From NCBI GenBank assembly GCA_015490895.1, contig WFWY01000057.1, positions 1-54,504 of the forward strand: a DNA stretch of 54,504 nt. The letters run 5' to 3'. The position numbers and the translations under genes were made by a program. Positions 6,763 to 54,504 of this stretch are shown here, one piece after another. The notes beneath the pieces are model-generated. The model did not search any database. It was not told where the DNA came from and worked only from the letters and a program-made list of their open reading frames with translations. Source of the stretch: Thiotrichaceae bacterium (GTDB taxonomy: Bacteria > Pseudomonadota > Gammaproteobacteria > Thiotrichales > Thiotrichaceae). How positions within the stretch are numbered: position 1 is the first letter of the stretch; every line of letters begins with the position of its first letter.

Positions 6763-7681
6763 ATTCCCCCAAAAGATTTTCACCACTGAACCCCTGATTT
6801 TCCAGTATCCGCCGGAGTTTTTTCAGGGCATCCATCTGTATTTGACGCACCCGCTCCCGGGTTAAATCTAGTTCGTTACCTACCTGCTCCAGTGTTGAAC
6901 AGTCATGTCCCAGCAGGCCAAAACGACGGATAATGACTTCCTTGTGCTTGGCAGCAAGCTGATTTAGCCAATGGTCTACAGATGATGTAATGTCTTCGTC
7001 CTCAAGGCTGGCACGAGGATCCGGTGTGGTTTTTTCAGAAACAAAATCAATCAAGCTACTAGAACCATCATTACTGTTCTTGATCGGCGTATCCAGTGAA
7101 CCTGTTTGCTCATTATAATCCAGCAGCCGGTTTAACTGCTCCACGGACTTGCCCATTCTCTCTGCAATTTCCGGAATAGTTGGCTCTCTACCGTATTCCT
7201 GAGTAAGCTCTCTGGAGTGTTTTATATAAGAACTGAGCTCTTTGTTAATATGAATCGGCAAGCGAATCGTACGTGTCTGATTCATCAGGGCACGTTCAAT
7301 ATTTTGCCTTATCCACCAGGTTGCATACGTTGAAAAACGAAACCCTCTTTCCGGATCAAACTTTTCCACTGCGTGAATTAAACCAAGATTCCCCTCTTCA
7401 ATCAGATCAGGTAACAACAAACCTCTTCCAATGTAACGCCTTGCAATCTTGACCACCAGGCGCAAGTTACAAACAATCATTTTTTTGCGGGCTTCTTCAT
7501 TACCTTCTATAGCCAGACGACCATAATAGACCTCTTCTTCAGGTGTCAGTAGAGGGGAAAACTCAATCTCTTTAAGGTATAACTGCATGGCATCCAGCCC
7601 ACGAGAGTCTATTCTTCTGGGGATTACTCCCTTTTTAACCGAGTTTTTTTTATCTGAATTATTATTAAGAGGCATGGACAT
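6761..7681 (-). CDS. rpoS: RNA polymerase sigma factor RpoS
   Basis: Sigma-70 family factor for stationary phase and the general stress response, 306 residues (E. coli about 330). Region 1.2 (DAMQLYLKEIEFSPLLTPEE), region 2 (NLRLVVKIARRYIGRGLLL, then DLIEEGNLGLIHAVEKFD and FSTYATWWIRQNIERAL), region 3 (TIRLPIHINKEL) and region 4 (RFGLLGHDCSTLEQVGNEL, then LTRERVRQIQ) are all present. The wording, especially the IRLPIHI and FGL blocks, fits RpoS better than RpoD or RpoH. The first ATG follows an AGAGAAC ribosome site. nlpD is not the upstream neighbour. Instead about 750 bp of gene-free DNA lies upstream, room for a regulated leader. Confidence 0.93.
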   Translation of the reverse strand: MSMPLNNNSDKKNSVKKGVIPRRIDSRGLDAMQLYLKEIEFSPLLTPEEEVYYGRLAIEGNEEARKKMIVCNLRLVVKIARRYIGRGLLLPDLIEEGNLGLIHAVEKFDPERGFRFSTYATWWIRQNIERALMNQTRTIRLPIHINKELSSYIKHSRELTQEYGREPTIPEIAERMGKSVEQLNRLLDYNEQTGSLDTPIKNSNDGSSSLIDFVSEKTTPDPRASLEDEDITSSVDHWLNQLAAKHKEVIIRRFGLLGHDCSTLEQVGNELDLTRERVRQIQMDALKKLRRILENQGFSGENLLGE

Positions 7682-9380: not shown

Positions 9381-9914
9381 TTAAAACACCAGGCCAACAT
9401 ATGGCTTCTCAAGCTCTTCACGCAATCGATGTACGGCTCTTGAGTAATGTGTCTTTACACTACCCTCTGAGCATCTCATAATTTTAGCCGTCTCTGCCAC
9501 ACTAAACCCTTCCCATAAACGCAGTGTCAGGGCTTGTTGTTGGCGCAGGGGAAGACGTTCTACAGCAGCTAGCATATCCGTTGTTTCCTGCTCACCAATC
9601 AGTGTCCGACCCGGCTCACGACAAGAAACCTGAGCAACGCCATCCTCAATATTAAAACGATCACTTCCCGGTTTGTGGTTGAAAAACACCCTCCATCGGT
9701 TGCGTACACTTTCCCTTCGATACCAATCATTGATTTTGTTGTGCAAAATACGGTAAAAATATTTCGGCCAGTCATCTTTATGCAAATGCGAGTATTTTTG
9801 CACCAGTTTAAACATCGCATCCTGAACAATATCCAGTGCCTCTTCCTCCTGACTGGTAGCAAACCGCGCCACAATAAACGCACGCTTCTCCACACTTCTC
9901 AAGAAGGTATCCAT
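9381..9914 (-). CDS. ECF-type RNA polymerase sigma factor
   Basis: A 177-residue group IV sigma factor. Region 2 runs from about residue 8 to 75 (FIVARFATSQEEEALDIVQD, then FYRILHNKINDWYRR). Region 4 is at about 115-165 (LPLRQQQALTLRLWEGFSVA and RCSEGSVKTHYSRAVHRLRE), including the helix-turn-helix. No region 3 is present, as expected. The adjacent DUF3619-like and DUF3106-like genes form a trio known from other proteobacteria. Presumably the membrane protein holds the sigma factor until a periplasmic signal arrives. The inducing signal is unknown. Confidence 0.9.
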   Translation of the reverse strand: MDTFLRSVEKRAFIVARFATSQEEEALDIVQDAMFKLVQKYSHLHKDDWPKYFYRILHNKINDWYRRESVRNRWRVFFNHKPGSDRFNIEDGVAQVSCREPGRTLIGEQETTDMLAAVERLPLRQQQALTLRLWEGFSVAETAKIMRCSEGSVKTHYSRAVHRLREELEKPYVGLVF

Positions 9915-48847: not shown

Positions 48848-49843
48848 TTATTCTTGCAACAATTCGGCCTCCATTGATAAATAAACCTGGTAAGCATTGG
48901 TACGGTTCGCTTCAGCAAAGGCTGGCAGGTCTTTAAATTCAGACCAGTCTGTTGCAGCATAGACTTCATCAAAGGGGGTGAAATCATCCACTGCGGCTCC
49001 CATTGTTGTTCGCAGATAAGCCAGATACTTTCGAGTAAGCGCGATAGTTTCGGATGGTTTGGTAGAGGCCGGGCCATGTCCCGGGATGAGGGCTGCCAAA
49101 CCACTGGTTTCGAGATGGGTTAATGTTTCCAGCCAGTTTTTGGAGTCAGCACTGCCGACGTAAGGTACTCGTCCTTCAAAGATGATATCACCCGAGAAGA
49201 GGACTTTATCGTTCTCAACCAGCATGGTGAGATCGCCTGAAGAATGCGCTCTTCCCAAATAGTTTATAACAAAGGTAAGACCGCCGAGTGTAAAGGTGGT
49301 CGATTGGGAGATGGTCACATCAGGCAATACCAGGTGGGTTCGTTCGTTAACCCAGGGGTCAAGCGAAAAACGGCGCTCTTCCAGGCGTTCTTTGGCGGCA
49401 TCTGACCTGATATATTCTTGTGCACCAAGCGGTGCAATAATTTCAGCACCGAGTTCTTCAAAAGCTTGTATGCCGTAAATATGATCCGCATGGTAATGGC
49501 TGATCACGAGTTTTTTGATGGGTTTGCTGGTGATTTTCCGTATGTTGTGGATCAGTTTATGCCCGAGAGAGGGGGAGCCGAGTGCATCAAAAACCACAAC
49601 GCCCTCTTTGGTAACCACAAAGCCGGAATTTGAAACAAACCCTTCGTTGTCAGTAGCCATACCGGCCTTGCCACCGACAAAATAAACGTGCTCAGTAATC
49701 TTTTGCACATTCATGTCAACGGTGACAGGAGGGTAAGCCTTCTCTTTTTCTTTTGAAGATTCAGCTAAAGCACTACTGCCCAGTGCTATGATGATGCATA
49801 GAACCATAATGCCAAAAACGTTTGCTTTATTGCATATAGGCAT
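48848..49843 (-). CDS. Exported metallo-beta-lactamase-fold hydrolase, SoxH-like
   Basis: A 331-residue protein from the ATG at 49843, preceded by GAGGAA, overlapping the end of the DsrE-like gene by 17 bp. An ATG at 49855 is the alternative. It has a signal peptide (about 1-28, SSALA). The MBL core has VFDALGSPSLG near the first strand, the zinc motif HYHADHIYG (about residue 120), LGRAHSSGDL and VLFSGDIIFEGRVP, and the final His in IPGHGP. The form is that of the SoxH/quinoprotein-relay hydrolase group, some of which lie in sulfur-oxidation clusters. It is the last gene of the DsrE/porin/DsrE/MBL array. The substrate is unknown; a per- or polysulfide thioester would fit. Confidence 0.85.
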   Translation of the reverse strand: MPICNKANVFGIMVLCIIIALGSSALAESSKEKEKAYPPVTVDMNVQKITEHVYFVGGKAGMATDNEGFVSNSGFVVTKEGVVVFDALGSPSLGHKLIHNIRKITSKPIKKLVISHYHADHIYGIQAFEELGAEIIAPLGAQEYIRSDAAKERLEERRFSLDPWVNERTHLVLPDVTISQSTTFTLGGLTFVINYLGRAHSSGDLTMLVENDKVLFSGDIIFEGRVPYVGSADSKNWLETLTHLETSGLAALIPGHGPASTKPSETIALTRKYLAYLRTTMGAAVDDFTPFDEVYAATDWSEFKDLPAFAEANRTNAYQVYLSMEAELLQE

Positions 49844-50324
49844 GATTTTCCTCATATTGAAGTCGAATAATTTCAGCATCACCCATGGGAACCATTTCAA
49901 CGAACCCGTGAATGTCTCCAGGCTTGTAACCCTTTCCTTCAGCCGCTATTTTACACATTTTAATTTTCAGGGTCTCGCTTTCAACCAGGCTTTGAGCACG
50001 TTGCATCAAGGCTTTATATCTGGAATGGTTTTTAATAGCGAAAAAATGAATTTCGGGGCCATGTAAAACCAGTACAATGGATTGCTCAAAAGGGTCAGCA
50101 CCCGTAATTTTGCTGAGGTAACTGGCTCGATCCAGTACGCTAACCAGTTTCTCAACCGTTCCTACATTCACATCGTAAACGACCTTTTGGGGCTTATATC
50201 GGGTAGCTGTAACGGTAGCACCTCCCCAGGGAGCCGATACTGTTTTCTCAGCCCATGCTACAGGAGTGAGTGTATTGATAAAAATGCCGCTAACAAGCAG
50301 CAAAAAGAGGGGTTTGATATTCAT
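49827..50324 (-). CDS. Exported DsrE-like protein
   Basis: A 165-residue protein with a signal peptide (about 1-25, AWA/EK). The start is the ATG at 50324 with GAGGA upstream. An open frame extends further but has no ribosome site. The mature domain has the DsrE-like order: KVVYDVNVGTVEKLVSVLD, then SIVLVLHGPEIHFF, a helix with RAQSLVESE and a strand IKMC carrying Cys124, the position of the persulfide-carrying Cys in DsrE/TusD proteins. It differs from the other DsrE-like protein (51897) in length and in its long C-terminus. Periplasmic sulfur relay is the family role by inference. Confidence 0.8.
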   Translation of the reverse strand: MNIKPLFLLLVSGIFINTLTPVAWAEKTVSAPWGGATVTATRYKPQKVVYDVNVGTVEKLVSVLDRASYLSKITGADPFEQSIVLVLHGPEIHFFAIKNHSRYKALMQRAQSLVESETLKIKMCKIAAEGKGYKPGDIHGFVEMVPMGDAEIIRLQYEENHAYMQ

Positions 50325-50521: not shown

Positions 50522-50541
50522 AGGAGCCTGATCAGAGGCTA
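50522..50541. repeat. Short MITE-end hairpin at the porin 3' end
   Basis: AGGAGCCTGATCAGAGGCTA is a near-palindrome made of MITE-terminal motifs. The porin TAG (50541-50539) is its final bases on the minus strand. It may act as a weak hairpin after the porin gene. Confidence 0.5.
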
Positions 50542-51858
50542 AAAGACATGGAGAACCTGAAACGTCAGCTTGTCATCCATACCATCCAGAATTTGATTGG
50601 GCACCGCCGTAGCAGGCAGGTTGGGCGCTTCAGCATTGCGAAATTCATAATTGGCAATGAGGCGCGTGCGTTTACTGAAGAAATACTGTGCGCCCAGTGC
50701 CAATGTGTCAAACTGACGTTCAAGTGCCGGGTTTCCTTTGGTGCCACGATTCAATGTGTCATAACGTAGCCCCAACTCCACTTTGGGTGCCACCTTGTAG
50801 CCGACATCAATATGCCATCCATCGGCTTCATTAGTGGTCAGATAATTGAGCGAAGAAACAGCACCGGCATTGGGTCCCACCGTGGCAACAGCACCAGGGA
50901 TAGCACCGCCATCGGATCCGTTAAAAATCATACCATCGGCTTTCACATATTCGGCAGCCGCCCGGTATTTTCCTTTACGATAGGTAGTACCTACACCATA
51001 CCGGGTGCGGTCAAATTCCTGTTTCCCAGCGACACCATTGGCAAAGTTAAGTGTACGCTTGCCATCAATATACCAGGCATAGGTTTTGAAACCCTGCCGG
51101 CGTGCTCCCCGCCCACCGAATACTTTTTCAGTAGAAAGAAGCAAATAGATATCCTTGTTGTCGTCATTATCACCCCGGTTGATACCATTACCATTTCCCA
51201 CCATAACCGCATAGGTAAATTCCCTGTCGCCTTTTTTGAAAGTGTTATGTGCCTGAATACCCACATCACGAAAAGCACCGACAGCACCATTAAGCCCGTT
51301 GGCAAAACCGGGGCGTGAACCATCTTCATCCGTAAAACGCTCCAGTAATAGCTGATTCGCTGCGTTGGTAAAGTTATTCCAGTCAAATGTGTGAATGGCT
51401 TTTTGTGCCTCATTGCCCTGAGGGGTTTTAAACTGGCCAATCCGGATATGCATGCCAGGAATATAATTCAGCGTGACACTGGCGTCGGTAAGCTGTGCGC
51501 CGCCCTTACGGGTAATACCATTATTACCAAACTCTGACAGGAAAAAGTAATTAATGCGGTTGTAATCAAATTGACCACGTATACCTAGCCGGGCGCGACG
51601 AATATCGAAAGTATTACTCGTACTGTTATCCGGCCCAATCTGGTTAAAGACAGCTTCCTGACCTGCCCAGGGGCCTGCCTGAATGTTAGTACCATCCGTA
51701 CGTGCATATTCGGGCTGCAAAAATCCCCATATTCGCATGGCTTTCTCTTTTTTCACGGCCTCCAGACCCTGCAAGGAAGGCCAGTCCACGGCAAGTGCCT
51801 GACTGCCAAATAGCATCAATAGTGAACTGCCAATGACAGTTGTAAGTTGAGTTCTCAT
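50539..51858 (-). CDS. OprO/OprP-like outer-membrane porin
   Basis: A 439-residue outer-membrane beta-barrel with signal peptide (about 1-23, SQALAVD). The start is the ATG at 51858 behind a perfect AGGAGG. OprO/P (phosphate-selective porin) family traits: RIWGFLQPEYARTDG, IRRARLGIRGQFDYNRINY, MHIRIGQFKTPQGNEAQ, a barrel with alternating aromatic strands and a terminal Phe (VLHVF). In Pseudomonas such porins pass phosphate or polyphosphate. Many relatives carry other anions. The setting between two exported DsrE-like genes suggests sulfur-anion uptake, which is inference. The stop codon is inside the repeat at 50522. Confidence 0.88.
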   Translation of the reverse strand: MRTQLTTVIGSSLLMLFGSQALAVDWPSLQGLEAVKKEKAMRIWGFLQPEYARTDGTNIQAGPWAGQEAVFNQIGPDNSTSNTFDIRRARLGIRGQFDYNRINYFFLSEFGNNGITRKGGAQLTDASVTLNYIPGMHIRIGQFKTPQGNEAQKAIHTFDWNNFTNAANQLLLERFTDEDGSRPGFANGLNGAVGAFRDVGIQAHNTFKKGDREFTYAVMVGNGNGINRGDNDDNKDIYLLLSTEKVFGGRGARRQGFKTYAWYIDGKRTLNFANGVAGKQEFDRTRYGVGTTYRKGKYRAAAEYVKADGMIFNGSDGGAIPGAVATVGPNAGAVSSLNYLTTNEADGWHIDVGYKVAPKVELGLRYDTLNRGTKGNPALERQFDTLALGAQYFFSKRTRLIANYEFRNAEAPNLPATAVPNQILDGMDDKLTFQVLHVF

Positions 51859-51896: not shown

Positions 51897-52334
51897 TTAT
51901 GGCTTGATCAAAATGTAACCTTTTTCAACAAGATCAATAATGCGTACAACACCTGCGGGTACTTTTTTTGCTTCGGAATGAATAACCGGTTCTTTGCCGG
52001 TTTTTCTCTTGATCGCTGCGATAGTATTCATGCAGGCACTAAACTTGACCCCACTGGATGCGAGACTTGAAACACGGGGTGAAGTGATTTCGTTATTGGC
52101 AAAGATAGATTTAAGACCGGGGCCAAAAGCCACAATTTCGATCGCTACCTTGTCCGGGCCATAGAACTTTTGCAGATTATTGGCAACATTGAGTACCAGG
52201 TTCTGCCGACTGGCATCACTGATCTGTAAGACCACATGTTTTTCGGCAAAGTCGTCATCTGCCTGTAGTGAGAAACTACCAAGTAATATCAGAATAAAGG
52301 TAAAAGGAATGAGTAGCCGCTTGAAATTTTGCAT
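51897..52334 (-). CDS. Exported DsrE/DsrF-like protein
   Basis: A 145-residue protein from the ATG at 52334 (AGGAGA upstream), with a signal peptide (about 1-25, SLQADDD). The mature part has the classic form: HVVLQISDASRQNLVLNVAN (strand and helix), AIEIVAFGPGLKSIF, a helix with VSSLASSG, strand VKFSACMNT with Cys101, and a VPAGVVRIIDLVEKGYILI C-terminus. Cys101 is at the persulfide site of the DsrE family. It is the first gene of the minus-strand array, 220 bp from the divergent sigma factor gene. The C-terminal form closely resembles the sensor domain of that gene's anti-sigma partner. Confidence 0.88.
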   Translation of the reverse strand: MQNFKRLLIPFTFILILLGSFSLQADDDFAEKHVVLQISDASRQNLVLNVANNLQKFYGPDKVAIEIVAFGPGLKSIFANNEITSPRVSSLASSGVKFSACMNTIAAIKRKTGKEPVIHSEAKKVPAGVVRIIDLVEKGYILIKP

Positions 52335-52443
52335 GTTGTTTCTCCTGCTGTAATAAGGTGAACGGATTAAGATGAAAGGAAAGAGGGACATCATTCTTCT
52401 CAAAACTTCTTTAGAACCTGTAGATGCAGCAGGTAAAGAAAAC

Positions 52444-52462
52444 ATTCCAAATTTTTTGGAAT
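52444..52462. promoter_or_regulatory. Perfect inverted repeat in the divergent sigma/DsrE promoter region
   Basis: ATTCCAAA-TTT-TTTGGAAT (52444-52462) lies between the divergent DsrE-like gene and the sigma factor gene. Each arm reads TTTGGAAT outward, a GGAA-containing element in both directions as expected for an ECF -35 site. A T run follows on the plus strand, so a weak terminator is an alternative reading. Confidence 0.45.
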
Positions 52463-52553
52463 ATTTTTTACCCATGAACCATCCTTACAGGGCTGGCACC
52501 ATTTACAGCTTTCACCCAATGCCAGAAAAAATACCTTGCAGGAGACAGAGACA

Positions 52554-53147
52554 ATGCTTAATTTTTTTCGCTCAAGAATGCTTGACAAGCCGTTGGCGGA
52601 ACTGAGGCCGCGCCTGTACCGGCTCGCCGTCTCCTGGTGTGGTGATGCAATGCTTGCAGATGATCTGGTACAAACCACCTTAAACAAGGCACTCTTGAAA
52701 CAGGAACAGCTGAAAGATTTTTCACATATGGAAGCATGGTTATTTAAAATCATGCATAACTGCTGGATGGAATATCTGCGTACCCAAAAGCCTGCGCTGG
52801 ATATTGATGATGTTAATTTAATGAATGATACATCACCTGAAAAACATTATACTGAACAGCAGGTTGTTGACAGAGTGCGAGATGCGATTGCCCTGTTGCC
52901 ATTACTGCAAAGACAAGTTCTGACCCTGGTTGACCTGGAGTCTTGTAGCTACGAACAGGTTGCCATGATTCTGGATATTCCACCCGGCACAGTAATGAGC
53001 CGCTTAAGTCGCGCCAGGGCATTGCTGAAAAAACGTTTAACAGGGTTAGGTGTCAACGGACTGGCCACCAGGGGTGGAAATACCCAGGATACTTCCAGAC
53101 TCACAACAACCCAGAATACGATTAGTCATCTCAGGAGGGTTAAATAA
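52554..53147 (+). CDS. ECF-type RNA polymerase sigma factor
   Basis: A 197-residue group IV sigma factor starting at the ATG at 52554 with GGAG upstream. Region 2 spans about 13-80 (RLYRLAVSWCGDAMLADDLV and QTTLNKALLKQ, then MEAWLFKIMHNCWMEYLR). Region 4 spans about 105-160 (IALLPLLQRQVLTLVDLESC, SYEQVAMILDIPPGTVMSRL and SRARALLKKRL). The C-terminus extends to about 40 residues beyond, of low complexity. Its last codons AGGAGGGTTAAATAA contain the ribosome site of the anti-sigma gene, which begins two bases after the stop. It is predicted to drive its own operon and the divergent DsrE/porin genes. Confidence 0.92.
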   Translation: MLNFFRSRMLDKPLAELRPRLYRLAVSWCGDAMLADDLVQTTLNKALLKQEQLKDFSHMEAWLFKIMHNCWMEYLRTQKPALDIDDVNLMNDTSPEKHYTEQQVVDRVRDAIALLPLLQRQVLTLVDLESCSYEQVAMILDIPPGTVMSRLSRARALLKKRLTGLGVNGLATRGGNTQDTSRLTTTQNTISHLRRVK

Positions 53148-53148
53148 T

Positions 53149-53892
53149 ATGAACAATGAACAAAGAACTACCTTGGATATGCTCCATGCACTCGCTGATG
53201 GGCAACTAGAAGCCCGGCAGCGCGAGAAGATACTCGCATTATTGGAAAGCAGTGCTGAACTCAGGGGTGAAATGTGTGATATCTATCGTGTGAAAGATTT
53301 AGTGCAAACAGCGTACCCCCTGAATGAATTCCAGAAAAACGCGGCTACTCGCGTTGCTTTTAATCGTCGTGCTTTTGCAAAAGTTGCCTCTTATCTGCTG
53401 GCTTTTGCGTTGACTTTTGCCACAGGTTATCTGGTACGGGATAGTGGCCTTTTAAGCGGCAAAATTGGGGCTAACAACAATCAGTATGAATATAGTAATG
53501 TACAGGGGAGTTTCCTCGGCAACACAACTGTTCAGGATAACAAGGCCATTGTCTTTTTAAGTTCCTCCGAGCCAGAGAAATTTGAAGCAGCCTTGCAAAA
53601 AGCGGAATCACTCGCAAAGCAGTACAGTCAAAATAATGGCAAGGTTTATGTTGTAACCAGTGCCCGGGGCATTGATTTGTTGCGTCTGCAAACATCCCCA
53701 CATAAACTGAGAATTAAATCACTGAGCAACCTTTACCCCTCTTTGCACTTTGTGGCGTGTAATAATTCGCTCTACCAGTTTAAACAGGCTGGAAAATCTG
53801 TCGAATTAATTGACGGAGCGGAAGTGGCTCCTTCTGCAGTGGAATTCGTTGTCAAGCACTTACAGCAGGGCTGGCGCTATATCGCTATCTAG
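53149..53892 (+). CDS. Transmembrane anti-sigma factor with C-terminal DsrE-like sensor domain
   Basis: A 247-residue protein (ATG at 53149 behind AGGAGG). The N-terminus (1-60) has the anti-sigma pattern TTLDMLHALADGQLEARQRE and LRGEMCDIYRVKDLVQTAYP. No HxxxCxxC zinc site is present. One membrane helix is at about 77-96. The periplasmic part from about 132 on is DsrE-like: AIVFLSSSEPEKFEAALQKA, KVYVVTSARGIDLLRL, strand LHFVACNNS with Cys204, and VAPSAVEFVVKHLQQGWRYI at the end. Order and spacing match the secreted DsrE-like protein at 51897, including the Cys. The likely role is to bind the adjacent sigma factor and release it when sulfur or thiol state modifies the domain. The stop TAG is followed by GAGCTTGTCC. 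Confidence 0.82.
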   Translation: MNNEQRTTLDMLHALADGQLEARQREKILALLESSAELRGEMCDIYRVKDLVQTAYPLNEFQKNAATRVAFNRRAFAKVASYLLAFALTFATGYLVRDSGLLSGKIGANNNQYEYSNVQGSFLGNTTVQDNKAIVFLSSSEPEKFEAALQKAESLAKQYSQNNGKVYVVTSARGIDLLRLQTSPHKLRIKSLSNLYPSLHFVACNNSLYQFKQAGKSVELIDGAEVAPSAVEFVVKHLQQGWRYIAI

Positions 53893-53979: not shown

Positions 53980-54504
53980 TTTCTAAGCTGCCTGTGTGGC
54001 AGTGAACTTCAATAGAATCGGCTTTGAAAGAGGCTTTAATTTCTAAGCTGCCTGTGCGGCAGTGAACAGATCCTCTAGATGTTGCTACTAAATTTGCAGT
54101 TTCTAAGCTGCCTGTGCGGCAGTGAACACAAGCGGCTGTCATCGCTGGAACGCCAGCTTTTTCTAAGCTGCCTGTGCGGCAGTGAACCCCTAACCATTAT
54201 TGAAGGCGCATTAATGACATTTCTAAGCTGCCTGTGTGGCAGTGAACCCGCACCTTTAAATGCCCTGCACGCTGTTAATTTTCTAAGCTGCCTGTGTGGC
54301 AGTGAACGGGAAATAGAAAAAAATCTGGTGTTGAATCATTTTCTAAGCTGCCTGTGTGGCAGTGAACAAAATAAAATATTTCCGATGGACTCAAATCCGT
54401 TTCTAAGCTGCCTGTGTGGCAGTGAACAGTAAATCCTGGGAGACATGAACAAGTATCCTTTTCTAAGCTGCCTGTGTGGCAGTGAACTTGGGTTCGACAT
54501 GAGC
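53980..54504 (-). CRISPR. Type I-F CRISPR array, truncated at the window edge
   Basis: Nine 28-bp repeats start every 60 bp from 53980 to 54460, with eight complete 32-bp spacers and a partial ninth (54488-54504). On the plus strand the repeats begin TTTCTAAGCTGCC and end GGCAGTGAAC. The reverse complement is the type I-F repeat, whose crRNA handle would be CUUAGAAA, so the array is transcribed from the minus strand and the leader lies beyond the window. The end at 53980 is therefore leader-distal. Repeats at 54040, 54100 and 54160 read TGTGCGG, and the others read TGTGTGG. No cas genes are visible. Confidence 0.96.

Follow-up and report, generated by a model that had tools for sequence, protein, structure and literature searches.

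The window analyzed here, the entire 54,504-nucleotide contig C57 (WFWY01000057.1) of a 2.78-Mb Thiotrichaceae assembly, encodes near its end an ECF sigma factor and a membrane-anchored anti-sigma factor (P0001), divided by a 219-bp gap from divergently oriented genes for two exported DsrE-like proteins (P0002 and P0003), an OprO/P-type porin and a SoxH-related hydrolase (Table 1). The original prediction, made from the letters of the sequence, had placed all of these genes correctly. The divergent set it described is present, with the hydrolase scoring below the cut-off of its best-matching family and P0003 recognizable as DsrE-like by the family profile alone; the start of the hydrolase gene overlaps the end of the P0003 gene. 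The sigma factor clearly belongs to the ECF type (Sigma70_r4_2, E=4e-15; r2, E=3e-10), with region 2 (PF04542) and region 4 (PF08281) above cut-off, neither region 1.1 nor region 3, and a score of 73.5 bits against TIGR02937 (cut-off 42.9). Two further sigma-70 region 2 matches in the window (7268-7477 and 9708-9872, both on the minus strand; 77 and 32 bits) belong to other sigma factors with no relation to this pair. A CRISPR array begins ~90 bp past the anti-sigma stop codon (53980-54487), comprising nine copies of TTTCTAAGCTGCCTGTGYGGCAGTGAAC at 60-nt spacing and interrupted by the contig end; the repeat resembles those of type I-F.

Table 1. Features of the locus, in window coordinates.
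Feature	Position	Strand	Remarks
SoxH-related metallo-beta-lactamase-fold hydrolase, exported	48848-49855	-	best NCBIfam TIGR04559, 182 bits (cut-off 280)
Second exported DsrE-like protein P0003, diverged	49827-50324	-	family HMM 22.9 bits; hhalign 96%
OprO/P-type porin	50539-51858	-	PF07396, E=2e-9
Exported DsrE-fold protein P0002, 145 aa	51897-52334	-	signal peptide; Cys101; 1l1s E=5e-6; model Z 19.1 to 1l1s
ECF promoter-like site to DsrE/porin operon	52423-52449	-	TGGAATG-N15-GCATC; inverted copy at 27/42 loci
ECF promoter-like site to sigma/anti-sigma operon	52457-52483	+	TGGAATA-N15-CCATC; same place at 39/42 loci
ECF sigma factor, 197 aa	52554-53147	+	stop 1 base ahead of the anti-sigma ATG
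Anti-sigma factor P0001, 247 aa	53149-53892	+	cytoplasmic N-terminus, one TM helix, periplasmic DsrE-fold domain
DsrE-fold periplasmic domain, residues 131-247	53539-53889	+	AlphaFold2 and structure comparison
Cys204 codon (TGT)	53758-53760	+	invariant, normally the sole periplasmic cysteine

Anti-sigma factor and its periplasmic domain

The single membrane helix that had been claimed for the anti-sigma factor corresponds to one hydrophobic stretch at about residues 78-96. Its N-terminus (about residues 1-70) was helical in the structure model (helices 3-16, 22-34, and 36-55), and the lysine/arginine charge bias indicated an N-in orientation in 39 of 42 relatives. These traits, together with co-encoding with an ECF sigma factor, are those of class I membrane anti-sigma factors. 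Profiles of known anti-sigma domains matched weakly (zf-HC2, E=0.18; the MucA and RseA N-termini, E=0.3-0.4), and the Hx3Cx2C zinc motif was absent. Judging from its architecture and the co-transcription of the two genes, the N-terminus probably sequesters the sigma factor. One-helix class I anti-sigma factors, RseA and MucA among them, likewise combine an N-terminal anti-sigma region, one transmembrane helix and a C-terminal sensory domain, but their periplasmic domains are different, and DsrE goes unmentioned in the text of the class I survey (PMC7406223).

Residues 131-247 were modeled by AlphaFold2 with a pLDDT of 82-92 and the order E-H-E-H-H-E-H-E-H-E, which is identical in P0002 and bears out the strand-by-strand likeness of the two proteins proposed earlier. 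In structure comparison (VIA), the anti-sigma domain reached Z scores of 14.8 to MTH1491 (1l1s), 11.1 to DsrE (2hy5_A), and 10.6 to TusD (2d1p_A). Both the sensor-domain and P0002 models matched MTH1491, ST0148, YchN, TusD, and the DsrEFH chains clearly above unrelated folds, with Z ranging from 14.8 to 10.6 for the former and from 19.1 to 12.5 for the latter. Single-sequence searches were less telling: Pfam DsrE stayed below threshold for P0001 (18.6 bits, residues 133-245) and P0002 (14 bits; cut-off 22.7), the NCBIfam DsrE model (TIGR03012) matched neither protein, and pairwise BLASTP between the two was insignificant (E=0.23). Family profiles, however, joined them firmly, as the anti-sigma family aligned to the exported DsrE family in hhalign with 99.0% probability (E=5e-18), and a profile built from an alignment of 19 anti-sigma relatives found MTH1491 at E=1e-18 and ST0148 (2pd2) at E=1e-7, with the cysteine aligned and also kept in 1l1s and 2pd2. 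P0003 was not matched by the anti-sigma profile and was found solely with the profile of the exported DsrE family. Together, the family profiles and the two structure models exclude a chance resemblance or a mispredicted fold.

On these profiles, the sensor domain is assigned to the MTH1491-like branch of the DsrE fold superfamily. DsrE of DsrEFH and TusD of TusBCD share its fold but are cytoplasmic sulfur relays, and canonical DsrE/TusD matched the sensor domain by profile at an hhalign probability of 0.2%, so that the domain is joined to them only through the fold and sequence gives no support to its membership of DsrE/TusD proper. The expected DsrE fold for residues 132-247 was thus recovered, although the nearest solved relatives proved to be MTH1491, ST0148, and E. 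coli YchN (1jx7), which are also nearest to P0002 and, unlike the sensor domain, are stand-alone proteins of unassigned function without an anti-sigma fusion.

Cys204 lies at the end of the third strand, at the strand-helix junction and in the same place as Cys101 of P0002. The proposed pairing of these two residues stood, since Cys204 was invariant in 43/43 anti-sigma factors and the aligned cysteine was present in 29/29 exported DsrE sequences. In 41 of 42 anti-sigma factors, it was the sole periplasmic cysteine; this argues against an intramolecular disulfide and favours modification of a single cysteine or a mixed bond with a partner. The argument that DsrE proteins normally carry sulfur on this residue is borrowed from DsrE/TusD, whereas the domain belongs with the MTH1491-like proteins; a search for sulfur-binding data on that branch found none. 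DsrE-Cys78 binds sulfur, with DsrEFH forming a hexamer (PMC3397948), and tetrathionate serves DsrE3A as a source of thiosulfonate (PMC4175335). The DsrE protein encoded in the source genome has its cysteine in a similar strand-then-helix sequence context, as far as a weak alignment can tell.

Promoter-like motif, distribution, and sox genes

The divergent gap contains an ECF promoter-like motif facing both ways (TGGAATA-N15-SCATC), its two -35 boxes standing back to back (ATTCCA-AATTTTT-TGGAAT, 52444-52462); nothing convincing was seen there of a standard sigma-70 promoter. Across the compared loci, GGAAT-N16-18-CRTC preceded the sigma gene in 39/42 cases and was directed in inverted copy to the divergent gene in 27/42, with 0 matches in 25 kb of reversed-sequence controls. 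A scan of the whole source genome (2.8 Mb) with the strict motif returned three matches, at the sigma operon, at the DsrE/porin operon and ~76 bp 5' of a third gene for an exported DsrE protein, which lies on a different contig and is of the type found behind the anti-sigma gene at other loci; the reversed control gave a single match, so the background is about one. A loosened motif matched the genome no more often than the reversed control (10 times each), and eight further loose matches all lay within ORFs, for which reason the strict form alone was used for the regulon. At locus L248 (6169-10312, contig C108), the third exported DsrE gene is situated 3 kb from a gene for a second metallo-hydrolase, which shares 39% identity with the SoxH-like protein encoded in the window.

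Where the anti-sigma factor was present, genes of the P0002 type carried the motif in 22 of 27 genomes, and where it was absent in 0/3, whereas other exported DsrE paralogues carried it in 2/20 and 0/20 cases, which rules out every exported DsrE gene being a target. This distribution predicts a small regulon consisting of the putative switch itself, exported DsrE proteins and the porin, and Sox genes in some lineages. The published sulfur-regime transcriptomes consulted yielded nothing usable on these genes.

With the anti-sigma alignment as query, matches were obtained in 98 of 369 gammaproteobacterial genomes, and the full-length fusion was present in at least about 67 (a hand count from a table and therefore a lower bound), that is, in about one in five of those sampled. 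Close matches to the anti-sigma factor were obtained in assemblies bearing the names Sedimenticola, Thiolapillus, and Thiotrichaceae, and occurrence inside the genus of the source organism was patchy. Among 339 sampled genomes of the phylum, full-length fusions were confined to the same class, with DsrE-plus-helix matches in a few others. Four frames outside the class (G575:C99:31685, G608:C118:54333, G624:C1:2172240, and G695:C7:668424), of 176-230 amino acids, matched only the TM-plus-DsrE part of the anti-sigma profile; they may represent DsrE proteins anchored in the membrane or anti-sigma factors that have diverged. In the domain tree, one well-supported branch split the anti-sigma domains from the exported DsrE proteins, which makes a single origin of the fusion compatible with the tree.

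The anticipated synteny of sigma factor, anti-sigma factor, DsrE protein and porin was conserved and recurred across families. Among 48 loci compared, the sigma family was found in 41, the porin family in 24, and exported DsrE genes numbered 28; the commonest layout across families placed a porin-DsrE pair divergent from the ECF-anti-sigma pair. Another DsrE type stood immediately 3' of the anti-sigma gene in seven of the 48 loci, and some loci had no adjoining DsrE gene. In one Thiotrichaceae genome (L012, 368-5011), genes judged by eye to be ExbB-, ExbD-, TonB-, and TonB-dependent receptor-like took the place of the porin next to the gene for the exported DsrE protein, which indicates a variable outer-membrane partner.

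The association with sulfur proved stronger than the original prediction could tell. Of the 67 genomes with the fusion, 65 encoded SoxB, versus 85 of 302 without it (Fisher p about 1e-27); when genomes were collapsed to families, the only handling of phylogeny applied to this association, the figures were 40/41 versus 37/~137. The association spans ~40 families. Since 85 SoxB genomes lacked the fusion, it is not required for Sox. In one related genus, soxB was the divergent gene in all 12 of the 12 genomes with a close fusion homologue, these genes being 80-100% identical to an 869-bit SoxB, and the motif faced soxB in the three such relatives inspected. The motif also stood directly 5' of soxX in one further genome, and a soxA-soxB or soxX-soxY...soxB-dsrE cluster lay within ~7 kb of the sigma/anti-sigma pair in two other families. 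Sox genes stand beside the pair or under its motif in three lineages. The divergent gene at locus L104 was rejected as a SoxB gene (172 bits; cut-off 550). The source genome encodes SoxB (706 bits) and DsrE/TusD, which makes the organism a candidate sulfur oxidizer; its soxB has no strict motif copy, so Sox is no obvious direct target there. In a genome without the fusion (L244, 4291-6888), an exported DsrE gene is located directly upstream of soxB, an arrangement that shows a DsrE-Sox link independent of the sigma/anti-sigma pair.

Interpretation as a probable periplasmic sulfur switch

We infer that the locus probably encodes an autoregulated ECF sigma/anti-sigma switch reading the periplasmic sulfur state, in which Cys204 would be loaded with sulfur and the sigma factor set free. 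The idea of a DsrE-fold anti-sigma sensor giving a sulfur readout is supported as regards fold, cysteine, synteny, and an ECF system with predicted DsrE-fold targets; sulfur carried on Cys204, its effect on sigma binding and the compound sensed form the conjectural part of it. The cytoplasmic N-terminus of the anti-sigma factor would hold the sigma factor at the inner membrane, with the DsrE-fold domain and its single invariant cysteine presumably lying in the periplasm. There, Cys204 would be converted to a persulfide or thiosulfonate, either by reduced sulfur compounds or by exported DsrE-fold partners that had acquired sulfur from these, and this modification would release the sigma factor through a conformational change or proteolysis. 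The freed sigma factor would transcribe the sigma/anti-sigma operon and the divergent operon for the exported DsrE protein and porin, provided that the promoter-like sites are active, as well as another exported DsrE gene elsewhere and, in some relatives, a soxB or soxXY...B operon. Sulfur would then act as an inducer.

Because DsrEFH alone is unable to accept sulfur from small thiols, an attractive variant is that the exported DsrE proteins deliver it; as these proteins are predicted targets themselves, such delivery would close a feedback loop. A broader proposal, which we put forward tentatively, is that an anti-sigma factor acquired a sulfur-carrier fold as its periplasmic sensor. The Sox-type sulfur load might then be read via transfer from the exported DsrE-fold targets to the lone cysteine, and the response might adjust outer-membrane uptake, the DsrE relay proteins and, in several lineages, sox genes; this would amount to a widespread form of transmembrane sulfur signalling.

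The alternative that fares best, though we consider it unlikely, is that the sensor responds to its partners rather than to small sulfur compounds: the anti-sigma DsrE domain would mix with the exported DsrE proteins, which would carry the sulfur and act as a co-regulator or feedback brake. The predicted targets are indeed relatives of the sensor domain, mostly its neighbours or under the same motif, and known DsrE-fold relatives are multimeric, as the DsrEFH hexamer exemplifies; however, the sensor domains and the exported proteins fall on separate branches, and a DsrE gene is missing beside the anti-sigma gene at some loci. It is more doubtful still that Cys204 serves a general thiol or oxidant sensor, being oxidized or drawn into a mixed disulfide under envelope redox stress in organisms whose sulfur-oxidizing habitat is incidental. 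A lone cysteine could react to many electrophiles, but the near-perfect co-occurrence with SoxB and the local sox targets tell against such generality, as does the single cysteine against a periplasmic disulfide within the protein. A purely structural Cys204 in a degenerate DsrE fold, a mere proteolysis handle for an RseA-like envelope stress response, would suit the one-helix topology, the N-in charge bias, and the weak N-terminal match to MucA and RseA, yet is very improbable given a cysteine absolutely invariant at the strand-helix junction of sensor and exported proteins alike and predicted targets that are sulfur-linked rather than chaperones or proteases.

The preferred reading, a switch responding to periplasmic sulfur, has partial precedents. 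ECF control of sulfur metabolism is known from the ECF26 factors RpoE1/RpoE4 of Sinorhizobium meliloti, which respond to sulfite-generating metabolism and drive sorT (PMC3511301). That system also combines an ECF factor with a co-transcribed anti-sigma factor, autoregulation and a small regulon for sulfur-compound oxidation, and it is activated by thiosulfate or taurine metabolism, the likely signal being sulfite of presumed intracellular origin (PMC3511301). Its anti-sigma factors, however, are assigned to COG5662, with no DsrE domain mentioned, and its targets are sulfite dehydrogenase genes (PMC3511301), whereas the system of the window has a DsrE-fold domain and DsrE, porin or sox genes as neighbours. 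Regulation of Sox by sulfane sulfur is likewise established in Hyphomicrobium denitrificans, where SoxR and sHdrR control sox genes; these are cytoplasmic ArsR-type repressors to which the membrane protein SoxT1B passes the signal (PMC10451225, PMC11582611), whereas the candidate sensor described here faces the periplasm. No description of a DsrE-fold anti-sigma factor or sensor was found in the open-access literature searched, in keeping with the original prediction, which had known of no such system; in that literature, the DsrE-fold anti-sigma sensor is so far undescribed.

How sulfur oxidizers perceive sulfur whose first processing takes place outside the cytoplasm has been described as poorly understood (PMC11582611). 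The regulators treated in that work are cytoplasmic and receive their signal from a membrane protein, whereas here a DsrE-type fold with an invariant cysteine is predicted on the periplasmic side. For experiments, the system is conveniently compact, with a single cysteine, a single promoter motif, and few genes in the predicted regulon. If the proposed mechanism is true, the cell could read sulfur before it enters the cytoplasm.
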